Below, in pieces: positions 8,290 through 58,516 of a DNA stretch of 64,000 bases. Position 1 is the stretch's first letter; every line of letters begins with the position of its first letter. Source of the DNA: Coptis chinensis (taxonomy: Eukaryota > Streptophyta > Magnoliopsida > Ranunculales > Ranunculaceae); contig CM027377.1 of the NCBI GenBank assembly GCA_015680905.1, positions 29,288,501 through 29,352,500 on the forward strand, written 5' to 3'. The position numbers and the translations under genes were made by a program. The notes beneath the pieces were generated by a model. That model did no database searches and was not told where the DNA came from. It saw nothing but the letters and a program-made list of their open reading frames with translations.

Positions 8290-11200
8290 TGTCACACCCC
8301 GAATTTCGACAGAATTCGAAAAAATAATTATTTGTTCCCGACTCTTCGATTTTCGAGGTGTGATGCACTCTCCACTCCCAACAACCCACAATCAGTTTAA
8401 ATACGCGGATAATTAAAAACCAACAAAAATTTCAAATTAACAAAAGTCCTCTTCATTACAAAAATTCACAAAACTGATTAAGTTATAAATCTCCTTTCAA
8501 CCCCCTTTAGTTATAAATACAACTGAAAATATAAAACAACATTTGTCTCAACTAAAAATCTATTACACCTTAAGGGAAAACAAAACATATTCTGAATGCG
8601 ACGCTAATGCAAACCACAAGCAACAACCAACCTTCTTCAACATGAAACCTGTCAAGACTTATCAACTATGTTCATTTAATGAAACCACCCGATAAGCAAA
8701 CATACAAATCGGGTCAGCATTATAAACAATGTTGGTGTGAGTAGCTCTAAAATACAACATATATGTATACATATACATACACAATCCATAAGGCAGTTAG
8801 TTCCTCCACCGAGGCACCTTAACTTCCAACAACTAATACAACATTCTTAACTACAATAAGTAAGACAGGTAGTTCCTCCACTAAGGCGCCTTAACTTCCC
8901 ACTAACCATACAACAAACCATACGCATAGTAAAAAGGCATTTAGTTCCTCCACGAGGCACCTTAGGTTCTAACTAAACTAATAACCAGCCAAGCATATTC
9001 TATAGTTACCGCATTTCATGCTCAATTACAGAGTGGGTCGTCTCTGCAAAAATAATTAGTTTGACCCACCCTTCTGCAAAACCATATACAATCATCTATC
9101 TAAAGATATATCATTAACCAACATATTACCATAATTATATTAATTAAGGCTTTCTTTGTGTGTCCCTAAAATCACATCGTATCTATGTCTTACCTAGTTT
9201 CTCTGGCTACCACAATCGCTTTCCAACGCCGAACATGTACATTCACATGCCTCCCCTCACATAATGAACTACTCCGTGCATAACTACCCTGAGCGGGATG
9301 CCGCACACCAAGTAACCTTCACATGAAAGGAATTATACAAGTACTGCCACTATTCAGCATAAAATATCGCGCGTCTCGTTCTAATTTTGCGAACGGAATA
9401 ATCAAGCCACCATTCGGCTACGCCAGAAGGACCATTCAGCTTCACTGAAACGCCAGAAGGGCCAATCACATTACTTACGCCAGAAGGACCATTCAGATTC
9501 ACTGAAACGCCCGAAGGGCCAATCATATCACATACGCCCATTGCTAGGGCCAAATCACATGAGTTGTGGTAGCTAGGTTCTAGGATTTTCGTTACGTAAT
9601 TTATTCAAGTGTCATACCTTAGTATCTCATAACCATTTCACTCTATCACGTGGCAAATAAATTATTGCACTAAGCCACCATATTTGGAAAATCTCAATAA
9701 TAATTCTTGTTCTATCTCATGCCAGTATACTTAATTGTACTGAAGCTCAACGTTTCTCGTTATAATACAATCCATATTATCACGTGCCAATACTATTCAT
9801 TGCATGATATCCAAATATATTTATATCAAATCTCGAAACTTATTATTTCACATGTCAATCATATATTGCACTACACCATATGGAATATCTCAAGCCTTCA
9901 TATATACTACAATTCATTTAAGTAGCAACTCATAATAATAATCAATCATGAAATGTATTCGTTCAATATATTTAGGTGAACTCAAGTCACCATCAAAACC
10001 CAATACTAAAGTCCGTGAATCTGAGTCCATGTGTAGATTAATTCTCATAAAAACGTATATATCTAAGTCTTATAAGAATTCTCTTCTTGTTACGTGTCAA
10101 TATTTATATTCTTTACACACTACTCACGTCAAATCTTTTAATTAGATAATGACAAACAAAGTTATATAATTTTCGACAATATTTTATTACTACATTTGTC
10201 CATATTCTTAAATATGTGAAAATATGGAAAAAGTCAATATTCCACAGTCAACGGTCAATGGTCAACAGTCAACGGTCAATGGTCAACGGTCAATGTCAAA
10301 GTCAACCTGTCATTGACAAAGTCAAACTATCGTTTCCATGTTCAACAGGTTCAGGGTCATAGCCCTGGTTCATGGCTAAGGACAAAGATGCATGGCTCAT
10401 GGGCTCATGACTAAGGAAACGGTTCGGACCCAACTAGCCAAGCCCAAACCTAAACCTTAGAACCCGGCCCCAAAAGTCTAAACATTTAAAGACCCAATTA
10501 GATCTATTTTAAGTTATATGGACCAACTCCCAAAACAAACTTGAAATTGGCCCAAAACTTTAATTGGTTCGGCCCAAAGAAAACTAAAGTGGTCTGACCC
10601 AAAAACAAAATAGAACCGACCCGACCAAACAACTAAAACCGGGCCCAAAGAAACAAAATAGAACTCGGCCCAACAACTAAACAAGCTAAGGCCCAAAACA
10701 ATTTAAACTAATATGGACCGACCCAAGTAACTAATTGGTTTGGCCCAAGGCCCAACCAAAGCAACAGTCGTCTTCCTCATCTCCCTCCACCACCAGCTTC
10801 TTCCACCATCAGCTCGCGCGCCGGCCACCACTTGTCCTCCTCTCTAGATCCAGCGGTTTTGACCCGGATGAAAAACCCAATATTTCTATACAATAAAAAC
10901 TTGATACCCTCACGCTTCGAAAACTCAACCTCGACCGCCATTGACAAGCTTTCAAGCTCCCAACAGCACCTATGCTAACCACCAACCACCACCAATCGAT
11001 TCGGTGTTAACCTACATCAAAACCAAATCTTGGGATAGGCACGAAAATCCAAACTCCTCACTTCTCACCAAACTGTCTCGACGCCATTAACGCTTCCAAG
11101 CTTTGACAGCACCGTACCACCGATCGAAACATCACTAACCAATCCCATAACAAAATACAACAGTTTAACATCACAAAAACAGAGTTCAAACAAATAAGAA

Positions 11201-11872
11201 CAGGACGATTCCGTTCCTTTGGCTGGGCGACGCCATTGACACCCTCTCAAGCTCCAACAGCGCACCCAAATTTCCATCCCAACGTCCCCCAACATCAACC
11301 AAATCAAATAAAATCAACCCACACCACAATAGTATAGCAGATTCAAACCAGATACAGGACAAATGTTGGTTTGGCTCGCGCCGCCATTACCATTACCGAC
11401 CTCAGTTCCAACAGTTTAACAACTCAACTTCGAGTTTTAGTAATTAAGCAAAACTAGCATTTAATGAGGTATCCATTCAACAGGATGAGAGAAAACTAAA
11501 CGACATAGTAAAAGAAAAACTGAGCGGAAGAAAAACTCGACAGTAAAGCTTTTTTCCGTAGATTTGGTAAAATAGATTTAAAATATAACTACTCACATAA
11601 ATTAATAGCTCCCCGAATTCATCATAGTTCGAATCGTCGCGCTCCAACGCTCGAGCAAACAAGCCGCCTCCATTTTTATTATTTTTTTTATCTAAGAACC
11701 CTATTCTCCAGAACAATACGAATATATACTTGGGTTTGAAACCCAAGCCCAACACAGACTCGGGCCCAGAAACCAGGCCCACATATCCCAAATCTAATCC
11801 AATCAAATTTTAAATAAATAAATAAATAAATTAATAAATAGATAAATACGTATTTTAAATACGGGCATTACA
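8290..11872 (-). repeat. LTR of the LARD (5' LTR in element sense), 3583 bp
   Basis: This is the partner of 2062-5578. It is longer because of several indels: an 18 bp filler at 8491-8508 bounded by direct copies of agttataaat, extra copies of a gtcaacggtcaatg unit around 10248-10310, and a longer GPSGVS-type mini-repeat. The outer end reads gcattaca and is followed by taata. Confidence 0.88.
9406..9545 (-). repeat. tandem GPSGVS-type mini-repeat inside the LTR
   Basis: On the minus strand this segment encodes alternating Gly-Pro-Ser-Gly-Val-Ser and Asn-Leu-Asn units in one frame. At the DNA level it is about two copies of a roughly 66 bp unit, each with two sub-blocks around cagaagg(a/g)cc. 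The other LTR has a more diverged version at 3164-3295. I regard it as a DNA-level tandem repeat, not a gene, because it lies inside an LTR and the frame is not conserved outside the repeat. Confidence 0.55.
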
Positions 11873-17224: not shown

Positions 17225-18288
17225 CAATAACCCCAAATAGATATGAACAATGATTGTTCATATGAATAGTGATTGCTCATAACTCATGTTAAGGTATGAA
17301 CAGTAATTGTTCATACTCATGTTGAGGTATGAGCACTCATTGTTCATACCTAAAATAGGTATAAACAATGAGTCTTCATATAAACAATGATTATCCATAA
17401 CTCAGGTTGATGTATGACCCCCCCCCCCCCAATAGGTATTAACAATCATTATAGGTAGGAACAATCATTGTTCATACTCATAGCTCATATTGATGTATAG
17501 TATGAACAATGAGTGTTCATAGCTCATTTCGTCCTTAATAGGTATTAAAATTAAAAAACTTAGTTCGTGGGCTATTTCAATGTGGAGATTGGGTTTGTGA
17601 GTGATTTTAAAAAAAATCATATCCTTAAGACTAGACAATTACCATGGTGGTTTCTCAAGCTTGTTGATTGCATTGCTAGCTCTGGTGGAGTCAGATTCCA
17701 ATTCAACCTCTTTATCGCCTTCTTCAATTAATACATCGACCTAAGTATATATACTTCAATAGCTTTTAGCTCTTGCAAGTATAGTAGTTCTTTATGTCTC
17801 TTACCTTCTAGTTATAGAACATTGAAGCTGGCTTAGATGTTTGCTGAAATCTTCTCGCATTTTTTTCCTTCCAAATTAAATGTCGTCCATTGAACCTCAG
17901 ATAAAAACTTTATATATCTCTCCTGTAATGACAAATATCCTGGATTTGAAATAAATTTTTTTCCGATTTTGCATTTTATGTCGTTTTGGTCATTGTTCAT
18001 ACCTTATGTGATGTATGAATAGTGATTGTTCATACCCAAATAGGTTAACATACTTCATACACTATGTTGATGTATATTCATACTCCAAATATGTACGAAC
18101 AATGAACAATGATTGTTCATAACTTCATACTCCAATATGTGTTCTTACTGATTATACATTACGTTAATGTATGAACTTATGAACAATGATTGTTCATACC
18201 GTACCCCAAATAGATATGAAAAATGATAAATTGTTCATATGAATAGTGATTGCTTGTAACTCATGTTAAGGTATGAATAGTGATTGTT
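17225..18288. repeat. array of TGAACAATGATTGTTCA palindromes, left of the CACTA element
   Basis: The 17-nt odd palindrome occurs exactly at 17244-17260, 18103-18119 and 18180-18196. Many near copies (gaacaatcattgttc, tagtgattgttcat) alternate with (a)tgttgatgtatga and ccccaaatagatatga spacers. A segment starting ccccaaatag at about 17231 recurs at about 18204, so the array contains a duplicated block of roughly 1 kb. The second block is cut by the CACTA insertion after 18288. A run of 14 C lies near 17422-17435. No known function; it could form cruciforms or be the body of a foldback element. Confidence 0.65.
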
Positions 18289-18680
18289 CACTACACCATA
18301 ACAGGCTATTTGCAACGGCAAAAAAGCGTTGCTAATAATTTTCGCAATGCTTTTTAAGCGTTGCAAATATGGCGTCGGTAAAGTGTTGGAAATATTTGCA
18401 ACGCTTAAAAAGCGTTGCAAACATAAATTTTCAACGCTTAAAAAGCGTTGCAAACAGAAATTTCCAACGCTAATTATAACTATTTCGTACACATATTTAA
18501 AACCTTTGCAACGGTTTTTTATTTCACAAACGCTTTTTAAGCGTTGGTAATTTGTTAAAATTTTTACCAACGGTTTGTAACCGTTACAAAGTTGTTAGTT
18601 AATTTTAAAAAAAATAATTTAAAATTTGTTTGTAACGGTTATAAACCATTGCTGATGGGTTGCTAATAAAAAAAAAATTC
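18289..18680. repeat. left terminal and subterminal repeats of the CACTA element
   Basis: The terminal CACTACACCATAA is followed by about ten copies, in both orientations, of gcaacgctttttaagcgttg-like words up to about 18660. Each unit is itself nearly palindromic (aacgcttaaaaagcgtt). In the En/Spm family, subterminal repeats are binding sites for the TNPA protein. Confidence 0.88.
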
Positions 18681-19298
18681 TCATATTTTGTAGCGAGACC
18701 AACTAAACCAATTTGGTGGTATAACTAAGACTTTTATGACCGACAACATGACACAGATATCATCATACCCTATACATTTACAACTACACTTCTAGACTAA
18801 CATATTCTCGTAGAGTCTTGCAACTCGAGAGTAGAACAAAAAAGAAGGATTCAAACAGTTGTAATTGCTACCACAATAATCCTAAATGAGCATTTTGTAT
18901 GATAAAGCTAACTATCCATCCAAATGAATTAAACATAAAGCCCGAAACACAATTATTATTCCTAGCGTAGGAATAGTATACTCGGCCTATCCTACCCGAA
19001 TAACACGTATTTCAAGATGACACTGCTAAGATACTTTATACTAACAACTAGAGTATCCCATGCAATTTTTCACTCATTCTGAAATATTCACTACATAATG
19101 TAAGAAATTTAACAGTTGTTCAAAAACAATAAAACAAAACATCCCCAAACACCAAAACCGATAACTTCACTTTACTTGCACTAAAAAAACATACTTTACC
19201 ATTTAAACTTCATATTTCATCAAAAGACATCAAATTTCTCAAGCCTACTTGATAAAACAATCTAAAAAATAATAAATAGTACAAAAAAAAAGGTTTAC
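18681..19298. other. CACTA interior without recognised content
   Basis: Non-coding. It follows the donor site of the captured PRMT exon (minus sense), so part of it may be that gene's first intron. The expected next PRMT exon was not seen. Confidence 0.35.
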
Positions 19299-19419
19299 CA
19301 AAGTGTGAGTAGGAATCGAAGTAGTAATCATCACTAGTCTTATCACTACCAATAAGAGCTGATGCTGCTCCTTCATCTGTATTAGAAGCTTCTTCAAATT
19401 CTTCATCTTCAATATTCAT
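19299..19419 (-). pseudogene. captured first exon of a PRMT1-type protein arginine methyltransferase
   Basis: Minus-strand exon starting with ATG at 19419-19417. It reads MNIEDEEFEEASNTDEG and then a linker, and ends in SDDYYFDSYSHFG just before a GTAAAC donor at 19298. DYYFDSYSHFG opens the catalytic core of PRMT1-type enzymes, which place asymmetric dimethyl marks on arginines of histones and RNA-binding proteins; the acidic N-terminus also fits the plant PRMT1 group. The S-adenosylmethionine-binding exons are absent, so no enzyme can be made. It lies inside the CACTA element, on the same strand as the transposase, and is best explained as transduplicated host sequence. The frame is open with an intact start and donor, so capture may be fairly recent. 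Confidence 0.8.
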
Positions 19420-20213
19420 GTTTGTTACTTATTGTAAACCAGTGAGCATAACAAGCACGTAGCATAGATAAACAACGTGGTATTGCATGGATTTATTGTA
19501 AACGATCGATTCTAAAGCACACAGATCGTTGCTAATATTCTCATTTTAATAATATATAACAAGTTTGAAACGCTAAAACCACAAACTAATATTGGGGGAA
19601 CCCTATGTACAGATAGAAATATTTTCCCAATCAATTAAAATATTTAGGATGTCATCTTTGTCGACTTTACCTAGATAAGTATTTCCTTTCCATCCCGTAG
19701 CACTGTACATGCATATGATTACAAATGCATAGTGTAGTCAGCATTGGCGAGGACAATAATCCACTATATTACTAGAAAGATTTTACTAGAAAATTGTTTT
19801 CTTCTACAAGAGCAAACAAAGTGGACTTTGCATTAAATAAATTCTTGGAACAAATTACAGAAACACAAAAAGGTTTCCTTTTCCTGCAACTTCTGGCAAA
19901 CCAAACACTGGTAATAGGATAACTTAGACCATGTCAAGGATTCTAACGCACCAAGAACCGGGGCTCAAAGCCAGGTTTCCAAGTTGAAATATTAACAAAA
20001 CTAAAACTGATTGGATACACTATGCTTCAACAAAATGACCAAAACGAAACTAATCTGTCTAGCCATGTAGTTGCTAAACAAGCACCTTCCCTTTGTAATG
20101 ACCATCGCCAAGGACTTAGACGTAACCTAGAAACTAATCGAAAACTTCATGTCCATCGCCAAAAACACCCAAGTCACAAAATAATCAAAACTATTGCATA
20201 AAAAAAAAATTAC
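19420..20213. other. CACTA interior between captured exons
   Basis: Non-coding. The part next to 19420 may be 5' untranslated or promoter sequence taken with the PRMT exon, and the part next to 20213 starts as the intron following the kinase exon (donor GTAATT on the minus strand). Confidence 0.35.
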
Positions 20214-20359
20214 CTGAATTGATAGCTGGAACCACCACAAGCAGTGTAATACAATCCCCAAGTTGAACAACATGAGTCAAAGCCCAAACCAAAGCAGTTC
20301 TCGGAATCTCCTTCATAGAGGCCTTAACAAAGAATAACCACCTTCCCCGCCGTGGCATC
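20214..20359 (-). pseudogene. captured N-terminal exon of a UspA-domain protein kinase
   Basis: The minus strand reads DATAGKVVIL, a one-base shift, then VKASMKEIPRTALVWALTHV, VQLGDCITLLVVVP and AINSG before a GTAATT donor. This is the start of the nucleotide-binding alpha-hydrolase-like (UspA) domain at the N-terminus of a plant receptor-like cytoplasmic kinase group; members begin with a V-x-V-A-V-K-A-S strand followed by PGDCITL. The kinase domain is absent. The frameshift between VVIL and VKAS prevents translation from upstream. It lies inside the CACTA element on the transposase strand, between the PRMT and phosphorylase fragments, and ends at a natural-looking exon border. Confidence 0.8.
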
Positions 20360-20547
20360 CGGCCCCTTCCCGCCTTCCCTCTCTTACATTTGTATATTCA
20401 TCTCAAAAAATTATGAATTACTTCTAATCATGACTTTTACTAGAGATCGAACCAAGAATGCCCAAGATATATGTAGAATATATGAATATAACCAGTGTAT
20501 TTTGAGCTCGGAAATGATGATAACTGGATTTGATATAATTTGCTTAC

Positions 20548-20918
20548 CGTTCCAACTCCTCAGATCTCACATAGATGACACTCTTGTCTTGGATCTTGCC
20601 CACACGAAAACGACATTTACCCTGTCACAACCAAATTTATATCATGTATAATGACCAAACTCTGTATCTCAAATGTTTGGAATTGGGTGATACAATGAAT
20701 AGTACCTACAAGACTAGATTGAAATCTCTAATATAATACCAAAATGAAAAGTCATGGTCATAGCAAAGAGTCCTACCAGATAAATCAATGAATGGATAAC
20801 TTGGGTGTGCTTGAAATGCCTTGGTAGCAAAGAATGCCTTTTCTTCAGGTGGATAAACTGTGATGAGACCAATGTATGGTCCTTCACGGTTCACCTCTCA
20901 CACCTTCCTCAATGATAC
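20548..20918 (-). pseudogene. captured two-exon fragment of a bark-storage/nucleoside-phosphorylase-like gene
   Basis: Two minus-strand exons are separated by a short intron. 20777-20918 reads SLRKV, a TGA stop, EVNREGPYIGLITVYPPEEK and further to PFIDLSG. 20548-20621 reads GKCRFRVGKIQDKSVIYVR and ends in a GTAAGC donor. The GPYIGL-x-x-YPPEE and FIDLSG/FRVGKI-x-D-K-x-VIYVR blocks belong to the N-terminal part of plant bark-storage-protein-like members of the phosphorylase superfamily, vegetative storage or vacuolar proteins related to bacterial nucleoside phosphorylases. The stop (TGA where Arg is expected) and the missing remainder of the domain make it non-functional. Upstream to about 20990 a further open stretch reads SDLKCDRQTGQICQTIDGYV; I do not recognise it, and it may come from a different captured source. 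Confidence 0.72.
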
Positions 20919-21153
20919 CTGCCTGGATACAGGAATAGCCAAGACATAACCATCAATAGTCTGACAAATCTGCCCAGTTTGACGGTCACACTTTAAATCA
21001 GATATAACGGGCAAACTCACCGAGATATGAAGCGAAAAGAAAGATATGAAAAGTATATCAAGTGGAGTTCATGTAGTTGCAATAAAGGAAGTACATACGC
21101 GAGATCCTTAGAGTTGATAACTCACGGGTCATTTGGGATCTTTGCTTTTATTT

Positions 21154-21328
21154 CACGATGGAGTTCTTAAGAGCCCTTCGACTATCATAATCGCATCATG
21201 CAAACTTCGCTCAGCCTCCTCAATAAACTGAAATGAAAACAGAGGATGTTCATCAATGAGTAATCGTTAACACACAAGATTTATTTAGATCACACAATTA
21301 CAGGTGTTCAGATACCTGATCAGCTCCA
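21154..21328 (-). pseudogene. captured chaperonin CCT-eta (TCP-1) fragment, part right of the break
   Basis: 21316-21328 is the end of an exon coding (A)DQ with a GTATCT donor. After a short intron, 21154-21227 reads FIEEAERSLHDAIMIV, then a one-base disturbance and RALKNSIV. In CCT-eta, a subunit of the cytosolic TRiC/CCT folding chamber for actin and tubulin, the sequence GGADQFIEEAERSLHDAIM is diagnostic. The rest of this exon lies at 29952-29995, separated by the Athila insertion. Beyond 21154 the match to CCT-eta ends; another frame reads ELHREIKAKIPNDP, of unknown origin. Inside the CACTA element, on the transposase strand. Confidence 0.82.
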
Positions 21329-22300
21329 TGATAAATGATAAAAATGATAGTTTACCTACGAAATGAATGATGAAACTCAAAACGTAAGTAAACTAAAACT
21401 TATACGAGTCTATATTTATCAAGTTTTCTACTCTCAATTCTATCGAAATAGAGTGGAGTAACAAATTCGTTCCACTCCTAGTTCTCTAGCATGGAATGAT
21501 TTCATAGTTAACTAATCGGTCTTAAGTCTAATGAGAGGTTTACGAGGGGAATTCTATACTACAAGGTGAATTAAATTAACAAGTTACGAATAACGAAAAG
21601 AGAGAATGCTAAGGGTTTGAATCTAGATAAAGAATTAAAGGGAATTGAATCCACCTTAACTCGACTTAATCCTACTAACAAAGACTCATCGTGATCCAAA
21701 TTGAATGCTTAGCATATCAAAATAGTAGTTCTAATCCCTAATTATACATGGCATTTCTACCAATTCATAACTAGCATGTGAGCGATTAAACCCATTCTCA
21801 TGGTAAATTAATTGTTTCTAGAGTGGAATAATTATCATGACGATTTCTAAGTTTAACAAAGATCAAGCGTCATCAAGGCTTCTTCAACCCCTCTAATGGA
21901 GGTTTAGCCTTGAATCATACCACTATCATTTCCCATTGATTTAAAACTAAACATCATACCAAAATTCTATTTGGCTAATTTAACTAACAATACTTCAATC
22001 TAATTTAACAACTCAGAAATGATACTCAACAAGAATTAAAATTAGATCTATAAATTAAAATGACAAAAATCGAAATGAACAAACTAGCTATTTTATTTAT
22101 CAATACTAATGAAGAACAATGATTCTAAGAGTTTAATCTAAAACAAGAATTGAATTTAAACTAAACTTAATTTTATTTAATGAAAACTAGATCTAGAATT
22201 ATCTATTGTTTTAGATCTAACTAGCTACCATTAACAAAAAGCTAAGCTTTTGTTTTTTATATGTTTAGATCTAAAAATCGTGCATGGGCTTGGAGCCATG
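21329..22300 (-). repeat. truncated 3' LTR of the Athila element
   Basis: It is nearly identical to 28482-29455 of the full LTR and begins tgataaatgataaaaatg, but similarity stops within gggcttggagccatg. About 500 bp of the LTR (its 5' end in element sense) is missing. The break coincides with a perfect 18 bp inverted repeat (22270-22313). Confidence 0.85.
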
Positions 22301-22313
22301 CACGATTTTTAGA
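22270..22313. repeat. perfect 18 bp hairpin at the LTR breakpoint
   Basis: The arms tctaaaaatcgtgcatgg (22270-22287) and its exact reverse complement (22296-22313) flank the 8 nt loop gcttggag. The left arm plus loop is normal LTR sequence; the right arm replaces what the intact LTR has at this point (tttgggccaaag). The hairpin was therefore created by the event that truncated the LTR. Confidence 0.88.
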
Positions 22314-22505
22314 TTAACTTGTTTTTAGAAGTTCGTGAAAATGTTTTAACTGTTGACCATTAACTTGAAAGGTACTGTTGTCCTTGGGATTTACCAAGGT
22401 AATTGCCCCGTAAGAGGTGACTTCAAAGAACTGAAAAAAGGATCGGACCAACGGGTTTTAGTTTCCACAGGGAAAATATGTAGGCGGGGAGTTGTAAAGC
22501 AAAAC

Positions 22506-23546
22506 CTATTGACCAACCACAAACTCTTTGCGCAAGATTTGCTTATCATGAACACGTTTCATGTTAGCTTTATAATCCTTCGCGAGATCGTAAGAATCGC
22601 TACAGATTTCTTCAAGCTCATTCAATTGCAACTTGCGTTTGACACCCACCTCATCAATATTGAAGTTATGGCTTTTATAGCCCACGAGCATGGTGCTCTA
22701 ATTCAACGGGCAAATGACATGGTTTCCCAAATACAAGTCTAAAGGGAGACATACCTATAGGAGTTTTGAAAGCCGTCCCCATACACCCATAAGGCATCCG
22801 ATGATAGACGCTTCACCCGACCTTTTCCTATCGGGGTTTCTGAGTTGTTTCTAAAATCTTTTTTGATTTCCCTATTAGAAACTTCTACTTGTCCGCTAGT
22901 TTGTGGATGATAAGGAGTTGCTACTTTGTGTGTAACTCCATACTTTTTCACTAGGGATGCAACAACTCTGTTGCAAAATGTATTCCACCATCACTAATGA
23001 TGGCTTTAGGAATGCCAAACCGACGAAAATATATTCCTTAATAAAAAATACAACCGTCTTATGGTCATTGCTCACGGCAAGCCGATTACCTCTATCTATT
23101 TAGACCGTAGTCCACGGCAACTAGAATATAAATATAACCGTGGGAAGCGGGGAAGGGACCCATGAAATCAATGCCCCAAACGTCAAAAAATTTCTACTAT
23201 CAAAATTGGATTTAATGGCATCATATTACGTTTTGTGATTAAGCCTAAGTTGTTGGCAATGAAATACCGTCTTCGCAATGCACTTGGGCATCCTTAAAAA
23301 GGGTAGGCCAATAAAATCCACATTGAAGAACTTTAGCGGCTGTTTTCATTCCACTAAAATGGCCACCACACTCTTTGTCATGGCAGAACGATAGAATTTC
23401 ATTATATTCCCACTGGGGAATGCAACGACGAATAATCTGATCCACACAATACTTGAAAAGGTAGGGCTTATCCCAGTAGTATAGCTTAACTCTGGCCAAA
23501 AACTTCTTACGTTCATTTCTTGACTAATTATAAGGCATAACATCAC
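22506..23546 (-). pseudogene. Athila integrase remnant
   Basis: Fragments in several frames. The H2C2 zinc-binding region lies at 23245-23499 (IIRRCIPQWEYNEILSFCHD, then ECGGHFSGMKTAAKVLQCGF and YWP). The end of the catalytic core is at 22739-22951 ([20 protein letters not shown]). The region after the core is at 22506-22691 (VKRKLQLNELEEI, ILRKEFVVGQ). The middle of the core (roughly 22952-23244) is scrambled by frameshifts. Integrase would insert the cDNA copy into the genome; this copy cannot be active. Confidence 0.85.
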
Positions 23547-23852
23547 CCGCTAAATAATTTACAATGTCAGCATACCATGGTGCTGAAAAAATAGCATACA
23601 GATGCTCATCAGGAAAGGAGTCCGGTATGGACTCAGAATCACTATTATCGTCGTTTGTAAGTCTAGATAAGTGGTCGGCAACTTCGTTTTCGACCCCTTT
23701 TTGTCCTTTTTATTTCTAATGTGAACTCTTTGCGGGAGAAGGATCCATCGGATTAATCTACCTTAGCATCCTTCTTTGCAAGAAGGTACTTAAAGGTCTG
23801 CATGGTCCATGTAAACTAAGGTTTTATAACCAACCAAATAAGGATCTAAAAC

Positions 23853-25106
23853 TTATCTAAAGCATAAATGACTAATAATTCTTTTTAAGGTAGTTGAATA
23901 ATTTCGTTGAACATCGTTTAAGGTTTTACTAGCATAATAAATAACAGTGGACTTATTATCTAGTTTTTGTCCCAATACTACACCAACTGCATAATCACTA
24001 GCATCACACATGAGTTCGAAAGGTTTAGACCAATCGGGAGGCTGTATAATTGGTGCAGAGGTTAGGGCGGCTTTTAAAGTTTCAAAAGCCTGCTTACAGT
24101 TAAAATTAAAATCAAAGATTGCATCCTTCAAAAGCAGATTAGTTAAAGGCCTAGCTATTTTCAAGAAATCTTTAATAAATCGCCTATAAAAACCTGCATG
24201 GCCTAGAAAGGCTCTAATATCATGGACAGTCCGTGGTTTAGGTAGAGTCGCTATCTTATTTAGTTTGACCTTATCTACTTCGATGCCATCGCTAGATACA
24301 ATGTGACCTAGTACTATGCCCTTTTTTACCATGAAATGACACTTTTCTCAATTTAAAACGAGGCTCTTTTCTTCACACCGTGTCAAAACCTTAGACAGGT
24401 TAGACAAGTAGTCTGTGAAGGAGTCTCCATAGATAGAAAAATCATCCATGAAAACTTCCATAAAGCTCTACCATGTCACTAAAATATATGAAGCATACAA
24501 TCACTGGAAAGTACGGGGAGCATTACAAAGTCCAAAAGGCATTCGTTTATAGGCATACGTTCCAAAGGGACATGTGAAGGTAGTCTTTTCTTGGTCGCCA
24601 ATATCAATAATAATCTGAAAATAGCACGAGTAGCCATCCGTAAAACAATAAAAGCATGACCAGGCTAGGCGCTCGAAAGCATCCGATCTATAAAAGGTAA
24701 AGGAAAGTGATCCTTTAAAATGTCATAGCATTTAAACGTCAGTAATCAATACAGATTCTCCATTTCATAGGACCTTGTGTGACAACATAGTCACCTTTTC
24801 GCTACGCACCATGGTAACTCCCGATTTCTTAGGAACTACATGAATGGGGCTTACCCATTCGCTATCGAGATTGGGTATATGATACCGCGCGATCGAAAGT
24901 AATCGTAAGACTTCTTCCCTAACCACCTCTTTCATGGCGGGGGTTCGACGGCCGAGGTTCGCGAGAAGTCTTCGCGTTATCCTCCAAATGGATCATGATG
25001 AGTGCAAACATTAGGTCAATTCCTTAATGTCGGCTAGGGACCAACCAATCACAGACCGATGTTCCCTAATCACCCGGATTAAACGTGTTTCTTCACCCTT
25101 AGTTAA
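23853..25106 (-). pseudogene. Athila reverse transcriptase and RNase H remnant
   Basis: The reverse transcriptase catalytic motif FMDDF is visible on the minus strand at about 24438-24452, followed in another frame by IVLGHIVSSDGIEVDKVKL and AFLGHAGFYRRFI. The RNase H start (FELMCDASDYAVGVVLGQK) is at 23853-24332. The earlier fingers and palm part, 24460-25106, is recognisable only in pieces with stops and shifts. The order RT, RNase H, integrase is that of Ty3 elements. Confidence 0.85.
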
Positions 25107-26599
25107 CTAAGAAGATATAATTACCGGATGACTACCATCCGGATCAAGTTGAATATATTTTAACTCCGGGGGAAGAGGTTTAAGCACTGGGGTGGAAAGA
25201 ATGTCAATAGATATTTCATCAGGGTCCCCATTTTGCATAATGAATACTTGCTTAGGTAGCAAGTGTTCATACTCAGTATATAGAGCAACCGAAGGGTCTA
25301 CAATTGGTGTGGACTCAAGGATGGTGTTGACTTCCTTTAAGTAGGAGTCATTTACAAAATCTGAAGTTCCAAAAGAAAGAAATTTATACATATTGTTTTC
25401 GGGAAAAGTGTTGTTAAAATAATCTTGAGCTAAGCTCTCAATCATGCTAACCTCCCCATCTATAGACGATTCTGGTAACTGTTTCATCATTTTAAAAACA
25501 TTTACTTCAATAGAAAGATGGCCAAAAGATAAAGACATCTTACCATCGCGGCAATTTATAAAGCGTTTGCGGTTTAAAGGGATGAAGGGCTCCCTAAGAT
25601 GATTGGTACAGAGTCGTTAGCGACTTATGTATCAAGGATAACAAAATCAGCAGGATAGTAGAAATCCTGAACCTTAACAAGCACGTTTTCCACTACACCC
25701 TTAGGATACTTAATTGACCTGTCCGCTAACCGCAACGTTATTCTTGTAGGTTGCATTTCTGTAGACCTATTTGTTTATACAAATAATCACGGAGTAAGTT
25801 AACACTCCCCCCGGTCTAATAAAGCGGTCGTCGTGGGAATCTCCTAAAATACATTTTACAGATGGGATCTAATTGGTCCTTTGTACTTAACAATTCCATT
25901 ATTTTCGATATAAAGTTGGGAACCGCTCAGGTTAGAAAGGCGTCTTTAGGTATGTTGGTCTTCGCCCTAGTAGTGCCACAACTCTTTAAGAAACTTAGCG
26001 TGGTTAGGTAGCTTTTTAATAGCTTCGAGAAAAGGAAGGTTTATCGTTAGATTTTTGAAAATGTTCCTAATCTCCTCAAAGTTTGTATCCCTGGTTAGCA
26101 TGGCTAATTTCTGAGGGAATGGTGGTTTCGCTCTATATTTAGTGTATAGCTCAACTTGATGTGTAACCTTGGCTTTCTGTTTCTTAGTTTGTTGTTTAAC
26201 TGGTACCTCTACAGTGGTAGGCTCTTCAGTTTCTATTTCGGTATTTAGTTCAATATCCGGTGTAGGGAGTACTGATGGGGTAACTATAGGCATAGTTACT
26301 TTGTTATCAACCACTCTTCTAGAACGGAGAGTGGTGATGGCATTTAGGTCACCTACGATTGTAGTTTCTGTACTAGTATTACCGTTTACCTCAAAGGCTG
26401 TGTTTGCTATTTTAGGGTTTGGTATCGCTTGTCTTGGAAACACGCCTTTTGGTTGGGTTTTCTCTTGGGCTAATTGTTGTATGCCTTGATTTATGGATTG
26501 TAAGATCTGTTGGTTTGATTGAGTCATTGTTTGGAAAAGTTGTTGGGTAACTTGTATAAAGGCGTCAATACGATCCGGTTGTGTAGGTGTATTAGTCAC
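25107..26599 (-). pseudogene. Athila gag C-terminal, protease and linker remnant
   Basis: 25967-26599 opens with a Gln-rich stretch (ILQSINQGIQQL) and ends in NLTINLPFLEAIKKLPNHAK and FLKEL, the conserved block before the protease in Athila/Tat elements. 25107-25538 ends LPPELKYIQLDPDGSHPVII, which in this branch links protease and reverse transcriptase. The protease segment itself, 25540-25960, is broken; no clean D-S/T-G motif is readable. Confidence 0.75.
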
Positions 26600-26649
26600 A
26601 GGTGGTGCGACTGGAACTATCTCACGTTGATTATTTATGGGTGGGTTGT

Positions 26650-27952
26650 GATAGTTACTATTGTTAACCGAACGATACTTCTATTGATATTATAACTATT
26701 ATAATTACCCTGACCTTGTGCTAGACCTTGTCGTGGTTGCACTTGGTTGTTATAATTATTATAATTCCCCTGACCTTGTCCTTGTCTAGGTGGAGCTTGG
26801 TTATAGTTGTTTGCTTGCCTAACATTTTGGTTATTAAACCCTGGAGGTGTAACTTGTTGATTGTTTCGCCAACTAAAGTTGGGATGTTGTCTCCATGGGC
26901 ATTAGGAATAGGATAGCTATTAATGGAGCAAACATTATCTTGCTCTAATTGTTGTTGTTCATAGGCGAGAGGACAATAGGAGTCAGGGTACTAGTGCTCA
27001 GGACTCAAACAGAAATTACATGGGTTGGAGTTTACATTCATAACGGGGATAAGCTTTTGTTGAACAGAAATAGCCTCAACCTTTTTAGTTAGAGATTCGA
27101 TTAAATTTTTAAGTTCTGGATCGGGTTTCATCTCAAACATACCGGGCCTTAATCATTGAAGAAGAACTAGCAGAGCCGGGGATATCATCACTACCCCCAA
27201 TTATTATTGCGTTTAGTTTGATTTTCTAAAATTTGTAAGCCTCGGGGCTCCTTTACTTAGGAAACTACCCCATTCATTATGTCAAGGACTTCTTTATGGT
27301 GGTGTAGAAGTCCTTTGAAAAAGGCACGAACTAACGTGTCTTTTGCTAGGTTATGGTGTGGACACTCTATAAGCAGATCGGTGAAACGATTTCAAGCCTC
27401 AGAAAATGATTCATGAGGATTCTATCGAAAAAAATGAATCTTGGAAAGCATCTCATCCATCTTTAGGGGTGGGTAAAAATGTTCCATAAACAGCTGAACA
27501 AGTTTAGCCCACGAGTCCACAGAGTTAGGCGCTTGGGCAGTTAACCAAGACGCTACCTTATCGGCTAAAGTGAAGGGAAATACCCTCAGTTTAATTTGTT
27601 CCACACCAACCATAGGATGATGGAATGTTGTAAGGACTTGTTCAATCCTACGCATGTGTTGATAAGGTTTTTCATGGTCTAACCCATGGAAAACGGGTAA
27701 CAAATTAAATATGTTTAGGGGAATTCGAAAATCCTCCACTGGGTCTGCTAGAACGATGCAAGATTTAGGGCTATTGCTCAAGGCTTTATAAAAGTCGGAG
27801 AGAGGAGTCTCTCTTTTTTCAACCATTATGTCAGGTGTGGTGGGTGGGATAATAGCTAGAGTTGTAGTGATTGGTATACTCGATAGACTTGTTTGTTGAC
27901 GTTGACGGTTAATTACGTTCAGTGTTTTTCTCCGACCAGGCCTTAATCTCAT
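26650..27952 (-). pseudogene. Athila gag remnant
   Basis: 27422-27952 is open for 176 codons and contains the retrotransposon gag core (FPFTLADKVASWLTAQAPNS, then LFMEHFYPP and the KIHFFR end). Downstream in a shifted frame, near 26890-26860 on the minus strand, HPNFSWRNNQQVTPPGFNN is followed by Gln/Asn/Tyr/Gly-rich repeats, typical of Athila gag C-termini. Gag would form the particle shell. Frameshifts between 26930 and 27420 inactivate it. Confidence 0.85.
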
Positions 27953-28465
27953 GCAAGTCTAAGTCTAAATAATGACAACCGTCAAACAATCTTGATATAT
28001 CGGTATAAACCTCTAACCGGAGATGCGCGGTATGGAAGAAAGGAATACCTGATTGCGTCCTTGCTTTGCTTATGAATAAATAGCGTCTTGTTTACGCGTG
28101 TTCAGTTGTATATAACAAGTTAGAACACTGAAAAACTTAAAACTTCGGTTCAAAACAAACCCGTGGAATCCGCAAAATTCAAATTTTAGATGTCATCTCA
28201 CTTTGAAGCGCTGGTCGCTCCGTGTAACTTCAAGTTACAGTGTTTTAGGGCGGGTCGTGCTCACTTTGGGCACGGGTCGTGCTCAAGGTTCTAGGCGTTT
28301 GGTAGGTGCGCCCGCTTTGGCAGTCGCTTCGTGTAATTTTTCACTTTAACTTTTCAATCTTTGAAACGGACAACCACAGTATGAATCCAACAAGGGTGGG
28401 TGGGTTTAATGGGACTTAAAAATGACTAATTATACTATGAAAACAATACTATGAGGTAACTAAGA
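27953..28465 (-). other. Athila leader between primer site and gag
   Basis: Non-coding leader of about 0.5 kb. It is locally GC-rich with gggtcgtgctc repeated twice near 28253 and 28266; nothing else of note. Confidence 0.5.
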
Positions 28466-28466
28466 T

Positions 28467-28479
28467 GGCAGCGGCGCCA
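28467..28479 (-). other. primer binding site of the Athila element
   Basis: The minus strand reads aa then TGGCGCCGCTGCC next to the LTR end. TGGCGCCGTTGCC-type sites are usual in Athila and Tat elements; one base differs here. Confidence 0.85.
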
Positions 28480-28481
28480 TT

Positions 28482-29951
28482 TGTTAAATGATAAAAATGA
28501 TAGTTTACCTACGAAATAAATGATGAAACTCAAAACGTAAGTAAACTAAAACTTATACGAATCTATATTTATCAAGTTTTCTACTCTCAATTCTATCGAA
28601 ATAGAGTGGAGTAACAAATTCGTTCCACTCCTAGTTCTCTAGCATAGAATGATTTCATAGTTAACTAATCGGTCTTAAGTCTAATGAGAGGTTTACGAGG
28701 GGAATTCTATACTACGAGGTTAATTAAATTAACAAGTTACGAATAACGAAAAGAGAGAATGCTAAGGGTTTGAATCTAGATAAAGAATTAAAGGGAATTG
28801 AATCCACCTTAACTCGACTTAATCCTACTAACAAAGACTCGTCGTGATCCAAATTGAATGCTTAGCATATCAAAATAGTAATTCTAATCCCTAATTATAC
28901 ATGGCATTTCTACCAATTCATAACTAGCATGTAAGCGATTAAACCCATTCTCATGGTAAATTAATCGTTTCTAGAGTGGAATAATTATCATGACGATTTC
29001 TAAGTTTAACAAAGATCAAGCGTCATCAAGGCTTCTTCAACCCCTCTAATGGAGGTTTAGCCTTGATTCATACCACTATCATTTCCCATTGATTTAAAAC
29101 TAAACATCATACCAAAATTCTACTTGGCTAATTTAACTAACAATACTTCAATCTAATTTAACAACTTAGAAATGATACTCAACAAGAATTAAAATTAGAT
29201 CTATAAATTGAAATGACAAAAATCGAAATTAACAAACTAGCTATTTTATTTATCAATACTAATGAAGAACAATGATTCTAAGAGTTTAATCTAAAACAAG
29301 AATTGAATTTAAACTAAACTTAATTTTATTTAATGAAAACTAGATCTAGAATTATCTATTGTTTTAGATCTAACTAGCTACCATTAACAAAGAGCTAAGA
29401 TTTTGTTTTTTATATGTTTAGATCCAAAAATCGTGCATGGGCTTGGAGCCATGTTTTGGGCCAAAGAATCAGGCCCAAAACCCAATTCTTTCAGTCCAAA
29501 AAGGCCTCTTCAGCTGCAGTTTCCTTCAACAGACTTTTTGTCCACTTTTGCTCCTCTGATTGGGTCAAAGCTTAGACCATTGGAAATCTCTTTCCGAGCC
29601 GGTCGTTTTGACATAAGGTAGGCCCAATTCAAGGTCTGAGTCCAAAGATCTGACGCCCGGAAGTTCTCACGACTTTGAGTGTTGTTTCTGCCCGCGTCAA
29701 CTTTTTAGCTTTTGATCGGGCTTTAGAAAGGCTTTGTCTTCTTGAATCTTGGCTTTTAATCATAGAACTCCTTAGCAACCGACCTTTGCTCCTTTATCTC
29801 GCTAAAGTGGCACATTTCTGCACATAATGGACTTTGAAGCCTGAAATGCATAAAAACACGTAATCAGTATTAACTCTTAATTATTACTCACATAATTGGT
29901 CTAAAAGTATGACTATTACAGGGTTAAAACTACAGTTTTGGGCTCTTATCA
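28482..29951 (-). repeat. full-length 5' LTR of the Athila element, 1470 bp
   Basis: It begins tgttaaatgataaaaatg and ends gggctcttatca on the + strand. It matches 21329-22300 with only scattered substitutions over the shared 970 bp, which suggests a fairly young insertion despite the decayed coding part. Confidence 0.9.
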
Positions 29952-29995
29952 CTCCACCACGAAGAACAATTGTTGTTGTCCTACCTGATGGACAT
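29952..29995 (-). pseudogene. captured CCT-eta fragment, part left of the break
   Basis: The minus strand reads CPSGRTTTIVLRGGA up to the Athila target duplication. Joined across Athila to 21328-21316 it gives the CCT-eta junction R-G-G-A-D-Q. The preceding codons up to about 30172 stay open except for one TGA but match nothing I recognise. Confidence 0.8.
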
Positions 29996-30346
29996 CAACC
30001 AACGTAGCATAACCGCAGAACTGTCCACCACTCTCCCTCCTCCTTTATCCGGGCTTGGGACCGGCGGTCTGAACTTTCATTATTTTGCACTGGAGGAGTT
30101 AAAAACGGGGTTGTTATCTCTTCAACCTGCAAAAAACAAAAAAACTTTCATAATATAACATTCTTATAAACCATCTAGCCATCATACCATCATAACAAGC
30201 TATAGTGCACAAGTTCGTTATGTCATTCTTACATCTTGCAAAAGGCTCGTTACCATTACTTACAAAAACATACTCAAAAACCAAAATAGAAAAAAAAAAA
30301 GTTGCATATCCCACACAATAGATTACTCATCTATCGCAACCTTGAT

Positions 30347-31099
30347 TCAAGCCAAATCAAAGGCCCCTTCAACAAAATCACTAAGGTTCGAGCAGCCAAA
30401 TTGAGGTCCATCATAAATAGGAGCATTGGGAACCAAGACTTCCTGGATGTAGATCTTTTTCTCCCCTCCAAGGACGACTCTGCCATGGCAAATATTAGCG
30501 GTGGTAGTCATAACATATCCCCTAGCAACCGGAACACCATCTCTACCTAATAGGATAACCTTAAGAGGTGGACTCAACGTTTCAGCAGGAGGGTTCACAG
30601 GAAGGTTCGCAGATTCAAACATATTCATTAAATTCTGTTGAGACGAACGGCGAACTGAGTTGGAACCAACATCGGTTCCAGGTGTTGTATCACCACGCGG
30701 CGGTTGACTATTCGACATTCCATTGTTGGTTACAAGCTTAAGCATATCGACAAAATGAAAAACAAAACTAAGATTTATATATATGATGAAAGCAATAAGT
30801 TTTATATTTAAGGCAAACTCACCATCAACACACCCTCTCAACTCTAGCTATGGGGACTTCATCTCACTCATTTCACCCTTAAATTCAGAATTTGATGAAG
30901 ACCTTGCTTGTGCTAACATCACCTTCAAATACTTGTGCGTTTTAATTGCTTTAGAGAGGTTAGAGTTGATTCCACGAGTCCTATTCCTTTTGTCCGCTCC
31001 TAAAACTTCGGTCAATTCGTCATTATCAAAATCAAGATGAGTTGCACTGCCCTTTCCACTTGAAGTTGCATTTTTTCTTTTCTTTTGAGCAGCCTCCAC
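30347..31099 (-). pseudogene. second protein of the CACTA element (TNPA/TNP1-like C-terminus)
   Basis: Two consecutive minus-strand frames. 30848-31099 is Lys-rich with a short acidic patch (DFDNDELTEVLGADKRNRTR). 30347-30841 ends in a beta-rich block, VILLGRDGVPVARGYVMTTT, then VVLGGEKKIYIQEVLVPNAP. Such a V-A-x-G-x-V ... V-x-LG ... V-x-I-x-x-V pattern is found at the C-terminus of the accessory protein of plant CACTA elements (family knowledge, moderate certainty). In En/Spm the accessory protein binds the subterminal repeats. Shifts between the pieces indicate decay. Confidence 0.55.
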
Positions 31100-31114
31100 T
31101 TGGAGTTCCTGATA

Positions 31115-33370
31115 TCAAAAAACGATGGTGGAAAATATTTTTCAAGCACGCACAATGCTTCTGCAGCCATGTACTTGTCCTCTTGGATATGTTGCCGGAC
31201 TAAGACTTTAGAGCACAACAAGTTGAAGAATAAGCTTATCTGATGAATAGCTCTTCGCAGGTCACGATGTTTAGGAAAAGCATGTTGAAGCAATACAGGT
31301 AGCAAATAACATATAATGACATGATAGTCATGTGATTTCATTACGAGCAAACCAGGTGGATTTAAAGTGACAATGTTGCTTTCCGGTTGATGAGAAACCG
31401 AAAGGAAGCTTCAAGTCCTTCAAAATTTTGCAGAAATTTAACTTCGTCTTTAGCTAAGACAATGGAGCCTTCGTTTTATTGGTTTCCCTCGTGGATCGGG
31501 TCGATTGCATCCATCGACCAATCGTGAATTAGCATCTTCCTCATATCTTCTCGCACCCTCTTGTATCCTTTGACTTGTCTTTCTTGTCTAGGATGTAATT
31601 TAGTAGATGTTCCGCAACATTTTTCTCAGTATGCATCACATCAACAACATGTCGGGATTTATAAGTGGGCCAATAGGGCATATCCCAAAAAATAGACCTT
31701 TTATACCAAGCCTCTGTAACTTGAACATCTTCATCATCTACACTATCATCCAAATTCACATCAAATGTGCTTCTTTTGCTACCAGTTGGGATTTTACCCG
31801 GCTTATACTTGATATGACTCACCTGCTGCATAACTTTTTCTCCACTTAACCTTAGTGGAGCAATGTTCAACTCTTCAGTCTTAAGTCCCAAGTATTTGCC
31901 TGACCGAAACGGGTGACCCAACGGAAGAAAGGGGCGATAGTTTGTGTAAACAATCTTCTTTGCATGCTCAAGATATATCGATTGAGTGTTATCTGAACAA
32001 ATCGGACATGCTTTGTAACCATGTGTTATACAGCCCGCTAAGTTTCCAAAAGCAGGAAAATCATGAATACCCCACATTAGCATAGCTCTCAAGATAAAAT
32101 GCTGTTTTTTATGCATGTCATAAGCCAACACCCCTTCCTTCCACAAATGTTCCAACTCCTCATACAATGGCTGAAGAAAAACGTCAATATCTTGACCCGG
32201 TGCCTTCCGCCCAGGTATCAGCAAACACATCATTTGGAACTCTGGTTTCATACATAAAGAAGGGGGGAGATTATAAGGTACCAAGTAAACAGGCCAACAA
32301 GCGTAGCTAGTGGATTGTATTCCACGGGGGATTGAAACCATCGGTTGCAATTCCAAGCCAAACATTACGCCCTTCCCGAGCAAAATCGGGCCAACTCTTT
32401 TACATGTTTTCCACTTGGATTGAGTCGATGGGATGTCGCATATGATCCCAAGAAGGTGTAGCTCGGTCGTGCCATGTTATTTCGTTAAGCTATCCATGGG
32501 ATAGTGTACAACCTCTTGAGCCTTGGAATCAAGGGAAAATGTCTCAAAACTTTATTCGCTCTTTTTGTTTCTTTCTTACCCATCTTTCCTTCTTTCACTT
32601 TGTATCCGGGTGCTTTGCACCCAAGACATTCCGTTAACTTAGCATCATCTTTCCAAGATAACATACAATTGTTCTCACATGCATCGATACTTGTGGCTTT
32701 CATTCCTAGATCTTTCAAGCATTGCTTTCATTCTGGGGTACTTTGATGGCAAAGTGATTCCTTCAGGAACCATATCCTCAAAAGGGACAAAAGTGCGGAA
32801 CCGCGCTAGTTCCCCGACCAACCATATTTCTTCTTCAAGTTATGAAGGTCAACAAGCTGGCTGAAAGTGTAGTAACGGGAGCCTCACATGAAGGGTATAG
32901 CTTTTGTTCGCCATTTTCTTGTATTCATTGTACCTCTTCCCCAAATCACGTTCAAGAACAGGTGGTGGTTCAAAATCCTCCATATGATTTTCTTCATCCT
33001 CATTCAAATCACCTACAACTACTTCATGCACTCCATAAAAAGCATCAACAAAATTCCCCATCCCAAGCCCTTCGGCCTCAGTGTTTTCTTCTTCAATCAC
33101 TGGCTCCACCACCGGATCCGTACATGGGTTCTCACCATGTAAAACCCATACACGATAATTCTTATCTATCCCGTACTTAATCAAATGTCTAGAGATTGTA
33201 CCAAACACAAAGCTTTTTCCATTTCGACATTCTCTGCAAGGACAAGGACACGTGGTCGAGCCGTGGTTGTTCACAATCGCAAATTGAATGAAATCAGCCA
33301 CCCCTTGTTTGTACACATCTCCAAATCTGTCCAATTCATTCATCCACTCTTTCTGAATTGGCCGAGACAT
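31115..33370 (-). pseudogene. CACTA transposase (TNPD/TNP2 family), decayed
   Basis: Domains follow family order on the minus strand. A transposase-associated zinc-binding domain opens at 33370 (ADFIQFAIVNN, CPCPCRECRN, HLIKYGI). A linker and a Cys-containing region lie at 32485-32718 (SIDACENNCMLSWKDDAKLT, then LTECLGCKAPGYK). The core tnp2 domain is at 31541-32383 (KAPGQDIDVFLQPLYEEL, PAFGNLAGCITHGYKACPIC, HVVDVMHTEKNVAEHLL). The downstream DUF4218 region is at 31115-31350 (MKSHDYHVIICYLLPVL, CVLEKYFPPSFFDI). Many frameshifts and stops separate the pieces. The protein would cut the CACTA ends; this copy cannot. The start at 33370 is the natural Met-Ser-Arg before the zinc-binding domain. 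Confidence 0.92.
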
Positions 33371-34560
33371 TCTGCAAAATTAGACGTGGGGGGTTGAACA
33401 AGCACATTGTGTAATCTATCGATTTGATACAACATAATACACAATCAAACCTTGAATATAGACCGCAGTACTAAGGCTTTTGTGTAAGTTGTTGAATCCT
33501 AAACTTCGACTTCAACTACATCAAAAGTAAGCTCTAAAATCGGCCTTAATGCAAAATTGGCCTAGGTAGCAAGCAAAGACTAGTATTCTCAAATTCTAGC
33601 TAAGTCTATGATATTAAAAGAATATCTATAAATAGAATTAACAAAGAATATTAACAAAGAAAAATTGATTTAATCTGTCGTAACATTGGGCTATACTACC
33701 ACCTTAGGTAGGCACCGCCGCCCTCAATCGACATATCTTTATCTAAGCAACCACATATACTTCATCATTGTTTCACCACTGAACATAAGAAAACTTCAAA
33801 CAACAAAGCTATCAATACTTTCGGTCGGCGTCAAACCGTGGTACCGATGAAAAACTTGAAGAGTCCGTAAACCTAGCATGCTTCATTTTCTAACAACAAT
33901 GCTACATATACAATTACTTCACCTGTTTCTAACTTGTTATGTAGATAATCTGAAAATAAATTTTCTTCCCCTACATGACTACATGACACTTTTATTGAAA
34001 AAAGAGACCCTGATGCATCAAATAGCTTTCAATGAAAATATATACTCTCTACACAAACCATATACACATTTCCCAGTATGTAAATTCCAAACAAAGCAAT
34101 CACGGCATACTGCAGTCAGTACTATTTAACTTAACCATCCTAATCAAGCTCTATGAAATGCAATTTTATCTTATCAATTTCAATGAAAAGTTTATCAAAT
34201 CAAACAATAACCCATATGCATATATAATCTTTATAAATCAAAGACATAATAACCCTTAAACAACAAAGCATACCCCTTGGATTCTCTTTCCAGTAATAGG
34301 GCACTAGGCTAGTAGGCTAGTAGGTAGATATAGTGGCGAGGCTGAGACATACTATACACATGCTAAATGGAGCAAGCCTCATATTATAAATAAATTGAAA
34401 GGTCTTGTAATAAATCACAGTAGCACGAAGCGGACAATGTGGATAACGAAGGTAGCAATGGATTATTATTATTCACCGCTTCACTTGTTCGCAGCGTTCT
34501 CTTAGAGTCTACATTGATATCTTCTTTATCTTATTTGAACCAACTCTAGCTGCTACATCG
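33371..34560. other. CACTA interior upstream of the transposase
   Basis: The transposase 5' leader or promoter should lie here (minus sense). AT-rich, with a short tandem ctagtaggctagtaggtag near 34310-34330. No captured exon was recognised before the VPS18 piece. Confidence 0.35.
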
Positions 34561-34853
34561 GAAATTATTCTTGGCACCGATAGTGGCCAACTATATGAGA
34601 TTGCTTGTTGGCCGAAAGGATAAGAAAGAGAAGTATGTCAAGTTTTTGTTTGAGCTAATTGAACTCCCTAAGCATTCATGGATTTGCAGGTATATTCAAG
34701 TATTCAAAATGTTTTTATTTTCATCCATATGGTTCATTAATCTTCTGTTTTTCAGATGGAAACAGCAGCTATTGGTAATTCGACGCGGTACTATGTCATG
34801 GCTGTTTACTCTACTACGCCTTTATTCCTTCAATCGGCATTGGGGGTTAGATG
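34561..34853 (+). pseudogene. captured two-exon fragment of VPS18
   Basis: On the + strand, opposite to the transposase, 34561-34689 reads EIILGTDSGQLYEIA, a disturbed segment, DKKEKYVKFLFELIELP, and after one lost base an EAFMDLQ-like end before a GTATAT donor. The second exon starts after ttttcag at 34756 with METAAIGNSTRYYVMAV, then a one-base shift and TRLYSF. This block is characteristic of the N-terminal beta-propeller of VPS18, a core subunit of HOPS/CORVET tethering complexes at the vacuole. The intron is retained, so a DNA copy was captured, not a cDNA. At least three small indels rule out function. Confidence 0.82.
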
Positions 34854-36129
34854 TATGTACATATCTTATCTTGAATGTTCTTAGTCTCTTTAGGCATAAA
34901 AAGATTATGCCTTATCTAGTAGGCTAGTAAAGATTTATTGAAGAAGAATGGGTATTGAAAGCCTTATCATTTGTGGTTCAAGTGTGATACTTGCTTGCGG
35001 GTCTTATATAGAGTGAAATATCGATTATAATATTCATTTAAGTGAAGCGGAGACCACATTGTAATTCAAGTAAAGAAATGTAATGCCAACACTGACTGAT
35101 CAAATCCTTTCTTCTTGGCGATTCTAGAAAAGTGAGCGGCTAAACCTAAGAGAGAGGCGATTATCGGGAGAGAAGCCTAGCAAGTCAAAGGCATATCTGA
35201 TTTCTGCTAGTATTCTAAATAACATATTAGAATAAATGCCAACAAATCAAACCTAATCTACATATTCGAGCACCACGAAAAATTTATCATATCAAAACCG
35301 GAAGGCCACAACTTGTAGCCGGGATAACCTTTGAAAAACTCTTAACTAGTTTCTTGTTTTTTTTTTGTCGCATTCGATCCAGTGATTGAATTTTCAGATT
35401 TAGATTTAGATTTAGAATTTTCAAATTACTATCTTGGCCATAGTTTGCCTCAAAATTCTCAAAATTTTGATATAGTAATATAGTAACTGATCGAATATAA
35501 TTCTCAAAATTAGCAAGTATCTCGTGAAATAGCATAAGAGAAACTCAAACCTTGGATTTTGATAGTGTCTTAATATGCTTGATTGCTGTCCTAATTAACA
35601 ATGGATGATCCAACAAATCGGACTCGAAGGTGTGGCCTCAACGTTATCTGCACATTACATAAGTCATTAAGACAAAAATGCATTCAATTTGTAAACAAAC
35701 TAAATTTTAAAATGAAATTCTAACCTAAAAGTTTTCCGCAGTTCCTCCTAGACAGACTTTCCCGCTATCTCTGGATTTTTCTTTACAAAATGGAGACAGT
35801 GCAAGGTAATAAAGATTGTCCTGACAATTTGTTTGTAAGTAGACCTAAAGAAGCCTAAAGATATTTGGTATCAAAATTTAGTATATGTTTTTGATAACAC
35901 TGATATTTGGTATTATCAAAGATTGTTACCTCAAACTGCAAGAAATGGATTGTGTCAAAACGGACTTCCAAACTCCTTGTTTTCTTCTTCTTTCTTTGAT
36001 TGACTGTTTACTGAATCTGAAAATTAGGTTTTGAGGAGTGCAAAAATAATGCGGCGGTGAGAGAGAGAGAGGAGAGAAAAAAAAAGTTATGTTTTATATT
36101 TCGATTTTTTTCGTTTCATTTCGCGAAAT
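34854..36129. other. CACTA interior, right side
   Basis: AT-rich, no supported gene. 35570-35830 contains short open stretches with splice-like edges on the minus strand that could be leader exons of the transposase unit. A GA-rich simple repeat lies at about 36057-36075. Confidence 0.35.
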
Positions 36130-36315
36130 TTTTAAGTTTGTAACACTTCTCCAACGCTTTTTAAGCGTTAGCAATTAATTCCGGAAATTCACCCAAATAA
36201 AGTAACGCTTTACAACATTGCTAATGCTTATTTAACGTTGGAAACTTACTAACGCTAAATAAGCGTTGCAAATCAAAAAAGGTGTGTGTTGCAAATATCT
36301 TATTATGGTGTAGTG
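36130..36315. repeat. right terminal and subterminal repeats of the CACTA element
   Basis: Words of the type caacgctttttaagcgtt and aacgctaaataagcgttgc occur in both orientations, as at the left end, and the element finishes ttatggtgtagtg. The array is shorter than on the left. Confidence 0.85.
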
Positions 36316-49797: not shown

Positions 49798-49894
49798 AAT
49801 AAAACCATCACACAGGGAGCCTGATGTAAAGGCACACCGCAGAATTTGTTTATAAGAAGAGATCATGCACAGAAATGCAGCAGTACATTGGAAC

Positions 49895-53266: not shown

Positions 53267-53275
53267 TGTAGTTCT

Positions 53276-58510: not shown

Positions 58511-58516
58511 TACGGT

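Follow-up and report, generated by a model that had tools for sequence, protein, structure and literature searches.

A plant CACTA element that formerly carried its own tnp2-type transposase very probably captured about five pieces of host genes as DNA, entered its present site as one insertion, decayed, and later received a Ty3-type retrotransposon. The element was found in a 64,000-nucleotide stretch of Coptis chinensis DNA, called the window below. The whole element and the parts assigned to its transposase are as follows.

18289-36315: CACTA element, whole, bounded by matching ends and GTT
31111-33370, minus strand: broken tnp2-type transposase with Transpos_assoc, Transposase_21 and the start of DUF4218 (Pfam; pieces in two frames)
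29995-30126, minus strand: exon-like stretch behind an acceptor-like site, with a stop codon adjoining the CCT-eta piece

The original prediction had named a TNPD remnant, and this was confirmed as a broken gene. On the minus strand, Tnp2 (PF02992, E 6e-60) and Transpos_assoc (PF13963, E 8e-21) both scored above the Pfam cut-offs, and the start of DUF4218 scored below its cut-off. When a large protein collection was searched, 35 of 441 candidates were relatives of the transposase; the 11 of these 35 that carry an organism name are all from plants, and the nearest named one, from Papaver somniferum, showed 60% identity over 61% of the query. The open frames at 30347-30847 and 30848-31114 matched no Pfam family, and no TNPA-like second gene was recognised. 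The stretch at 29995-30126, which also matched no family in Pfam, is possibly the last exon of the transposase.

Pieces of host genes were found on both sides of the transposase, inside the same CACTA insertion.

19299-19419, minus strand: N-terminal exon piece of PRMT1 type, with a splice-donor-like GT at its end
20214-20385, minus strand: plant protein kinase first-exon piece, ending at a donor-like GT
20548-20915, minus strand: two exon-like pieces flanking a 155-bp GT-AG intron (20622-20776), 5ʹ limit set by eye
21144-21328, minus strand: CCT-eta, downstream half, with the remainder of a split exon, an 88-bp GT-AG intron (21228-21315) and the next exon
29957-29994, minus strand: CCT-eta, upstream half of the split exon
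34338-34848, plus strand: VPS18 beta-propeller fragment, three exon pieces, frameshifted (Pfam)

Five gene identities had been proposed from the sequence. CCT-eta, VPS18, the kinase exon and, by a short match, PRMT1 were supported, and the bark-storage identity and the UspA part of the kinase label were not. Host gene DNA with a supported identity in four of five pieces thus lies between the two CACTA ends.

For CCT-eta, eta chains of T-complex protein 1 ranked first among PDB sequences (E 4.3e-12), with other subunits behind them, and the match to the chaperonin family PF00118 (E 2.6e-7) stayed under the curated Pfam cut-off. The alignment in the next exon reaches 21156, and the limit beyond that position was set by eye. 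The VPS18 fragment, aligned up to 34806 with its 3ʹ limit set by eye, keeps two GT-AG introns (34452-34549 and 34690-34755). It matched PF05131 above the cut-off (E 5e-13) when the query was the three exon pieces joined with X, and below the cut-off (E 0.0042) in a separate Pfam search; no match to it was found among PDB sequences. For ten further peptides and open frames, the only Pfam matches were VPS18 and TEP1_N, the latter at chance level (E 4.6).

The kinase piece aligned at 20209-20328; its frame is broken upstream and its 5ʹ limit was set by eye. All of the 110 candidates from the large protein collection, which were confined to lengths of about 37-119 aa, scored E 3e-5 or better, and the best relative showed 90% identity over 59% of the query. 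One of the 110 is named as a kinase (‘inactive protein kinase’). The nine relatives inspected start with M and extend beyond the donor site in the window, which fits a first coding exon. This exon matched no Pfam family, and its two PDB matches were rejected as being at chance level. The piece at 20214-20385 presumably comes from a kinase of the UspA-domain type. In the PRMT1 piece, 15 of 17 residues were identical in a short match to PDB sequences (E 4.4e-4), and all ten matches listed were arginine methyltransferases; Pfam gave no family for this piece.

The two exon-like pieces at 20548-20915 are what we take to be the bark-storage/phosphorylase-like piece. This identity was unsupported by PDB sequences, by Pfam and by the large protein collection, which yielded one candidate and covered lengths of about 54-171 aa, so that full-length relatives were beyond its reach. 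A sixth piece at about 20920-21045 was considered and rejected: it matched no Pfam family, and its match to an eggshell membrane protein among PDB sequences was judged to be chance (E 1.3e-4 for the whole sequence, E 7 for the best single stretch).

Fragment queries were also compared with the window itself, where self-matches are 100% by construction. Other matches away from the fragments had E values of 0.12 or worse, and the row with E 4e-6 for the CCT-eta query was its own upstream half at 29994.

As predicted, introns were kept. Four complete GT-AG introns were found, one of them within the piece with the unconfirmed bark-storage label, and these retained introns indicate that the pieces were copied from DNA. 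Donor-like sites on the minus strand lie at about 19298, 20213 and 20547. The predicted arrangement was also observed: four pieces lie on the strand of the transposase, and VPS18 lies on the opposite one. The original prediction also had the element picking up DNA on several occasions; more than one capture event is suggested only by VPS18, through its location away from the other pieces and its opposite strand.

The arrangement has a second possible explanation. The gene pieces could have been joined beforehand, in a segmental mosaic or one made earlier by transposons, and at least the left four would then have been taken up in one CACTA capture. The four left pieces do share a strand and form one group, bounded by the transposase on one side and by the left end on the other, and two wheat CACTA families seem, as far as that account goes, to have swapped captured DNA (PMC4290129). 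VPS18, however, stands apart, beyond the transposase and in the opposite orientation, which makes at least two events likely; we consider the pre-joined origin unlikely. The strictest form of the capture account, in which a transposase-encoding CACTA gathered pieces of unlinked host genes on both flanks of its transposase in at least two separate events, has in our judgment somewhat less than an even chance of being correct. If it is true, gene capture would not be confined to stripped-down Pack elements but would also be a property of CACTA copies that were once autonomous.

Under the favoured account of DNA-level capture by a formerly tnp2-bearing element, a plant CACTA of the En/Spm type would once have carried its own tnp2-type transposase and would have taken up about five host gene pieces as DNA, introns included. 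The pieces may derive from unlinked loci. Template switching in the course of gap repair, or the fusion of neighbouring copies, could have brought them in. A 2026 review describes a capture route in which insertions lie close together and aberrant excision follows (PMC13317346). The interior of the element holds only one weak subterminal site, at 19564, so a fusion of two elements would leave no visible trace. The element may have moved by its own transposase before decay, or by the transposase of relatives afterwards. It would then have entered a local repeat as one unit with a 3-bp duplication and decayed, and a Ty3-type LTR retrotransposon would later have jumped into the captured CCT-eta exon.

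That the pieces are instead processed pseudogenes, or arrived as separate insertions with no connection to the CACTA, is very improbable, because, short as all five are and frame-broken as several of them are, they include four complete GT-AG introns and all lie within one bounded insertion.

The boundaries of this insertion are given by the following features.

18286-18288: GTT target site duplication, left copy (alignment to the paralogous site is most collinear with a single GTT)
18289-18301, plus strand: terminal inverted repeat, left, CACTACACCATAA (sequence match to the other end)
18309-18640: subterminal repeat cluster, left, AAGCGTTGCAAA and its reverse complement (motif count)
36137-36297: subterminal repeats, right, fewer copies (motif count)
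36303-36315, minus strand: terminal inverted repeat, right, the reverse complement of CACTACACCATAA
36316-36318: GTT target site duplication, right copy

The matching termini and GTT duplications that had been reported were reproduced. The terminal inverted repeats are identical at 13 of 13 positions and start with CACTA, as in CACTA/En/Spm elements. A 10-base matching block is also present just inside both of them, and GTT flanks the element on both sides as a 3-bp target site duplication. The local repeat that hosts the element has a second copy in the window at about 17230-17500, which we used as the paralogous counterpart of an empty site. When the flanks were joined with one GTT and aligned to this copy, 237 of 285 columns were identical and the alignment was unbroken at the junction; when both GTT were kept, the result was 237 of 288 and a 3-base gap appeared at the junction. 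The repeat is internally repetitive and gave weaker, shifted secondary alignments too, and the best alignment was the collinear one. The collinearity of the flanks with one GTT kept indicates that both ends belong to a single insertion, and it speaks for 18289-36315 being one CACTA insertion with a 3-bp duplication.

The subterminal repeats were found clustered at the ends, as had been described. With up to 2 mismatches and on either strand, AAGCGTTGCAAA occurred at 16 sites in the two terminal 500-bp segments, 13 of them in the left segment and 3 in the right. In 200 sequences simulated with a first-order Markov model of the same 1,000 bp, the mean was 0.365 sites and the highest count was 2; the motif had been picked by eye from the sequence analysed. 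An internal CACTACA at 19089 was considered as a relic end and rejected, as no repeat cluster lies beside it; by arithmetic, a 9.4-kb sequence should contain any particular 7-mer about once when both strands are counted.

The original prediction would have been overturned if its two ends had belonged to separate elements, and within the window the collinear flanks came out against such a separation. The repeat-rich region and the unequal subterminal repeats of the outer 500 bp would suit ends from different elements with a chance mosaic between them, and we give this explanation hardly any credence against the matching 13-bp ends, the identical GTT and the collinear rejoining of the flanks.

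The single bounded insertion therefore stood, and the description of it as a complete 18-kb element did not: it is a decayed 9.4-kb element plus a later retrotransposon guest, which was absent from the original prediction.

21329-29951, minus strand: Ty3-type LTR retrotransposon, 8,623 bp, with broken gag-pol

This retrotransposon makes up almost half of the 18 kb, and the CACTA element is 9,399 bp long after subtraction of the retrotransposon and one CTCCA. It splits the captured CCT-eta exon, separating the two halves by 8.6 kb, and is flanked by a 5-bp duplication, CTCCA, at 21324-21328 and 29952-29956. The order of events is thus partly visible, with capture first and the nested retrotransposon after it. 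The LTRs differ at 18 positions over 972 bp, an identity of 98.1%. Substitution rates in plants are 7e-9 to 1.3e-8 per site per year, which would put the age of the retrotransposon at about 0.7 to 1.3 million years. The left LTR copy is shorter by about 500 bp, and the coding regions are broken despite the 98.1% identity of the LTRs.

The label Pack-CACTA did not hold. In the published classification, as its text states the rule, a transposase match with E below 1e-5 over more than 250 bp makes an element autonomous or autonomous-derived and not Pack-TYPE, and some maize Pack-TYPE elements may hold small pieces of transposase (PMC8903248). The element described here is not a Pack-CACTA by that classification because a substantial match to a broken tnp2 remains. 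It shares with Pack-CACTA and other Pack-TYPE elements captured coding DNA between CACTA ends, and differs from them by its transposase match, which places it in a class that is kept apart (PMC8903248). In maize, Pack-TYPE elements commonly hold several loci per element, Pack-CACTAs most of all, according to the same account (PMC8903248).

Five sources in one element had been considered exceptional, and this is contradicted by Tgm-Express1, a 5.7-kb soybean CACTA described as containing both intronic and exonic parts of five unrelated host genes (PMC1947982, PMC2613891). Chimeric transcripts have been reported for Tgm-Express1. The present element resembles it in having five unrelated host gene pieces, with introns and exons, in a CACTA. 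It differs in that it also has a broken tnp2 flanked by captured pieces on either side, as well as a nested LTR retrotransposon. CACTA elements of Chenopodium combine, in the published description, a transposase with host gene fragments, which are reported from the 5ʹ region ahead of ORF1; Neprosin and AP2 are among the fragments named (PMC8978399). These elements are likewise transposase-bearing, and VPS18 has the corresponding position in the present one, whose other four pieces are found beyond the transposase; no five-gene case is described as far as that report goes (PMC8978399). In the Tpn1 family of Ipomoea nil, CACTA interiors are reported to be replaced by host genic DNA and copies with broken TnpD exist, as in the present case, but the gene carriers there are described as non-autonomous copies (PMC5105172). 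On wheat chromosome 3B, 140 CACTA capture events have been described (PMC4290129).

Gene scavenging by CACTA elements is thus already known from soybean and other plants. The present element is a well-bounded, clear case of DNA-level multi-gene capture by a CACTA; it extends a class known mostly from transposase-less copies by a case that bears a transposase, and it leaves the known picture unchanged.

Several other features were noticed in the window. A direct duplication of about 3.5 kb with 94.2% identity occupies 2062-5553 and 8290-11831, and both copies hold CACTACACCATATGGA (at 3612 and 9869), with no similar opposite-strand end seen nearby. A long open frame at 49856-51283 matched UDP-glycosyltransferase (PF00201, E 2.5e-19), and an open frame at 60184-60756 contains a RING-H2 finger (PF13639, E 3.6e-13). 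Diverged repeat pieces with about 86% identity were found at 52902-53696 and 58204-58882, the two pieces being in swapped order.
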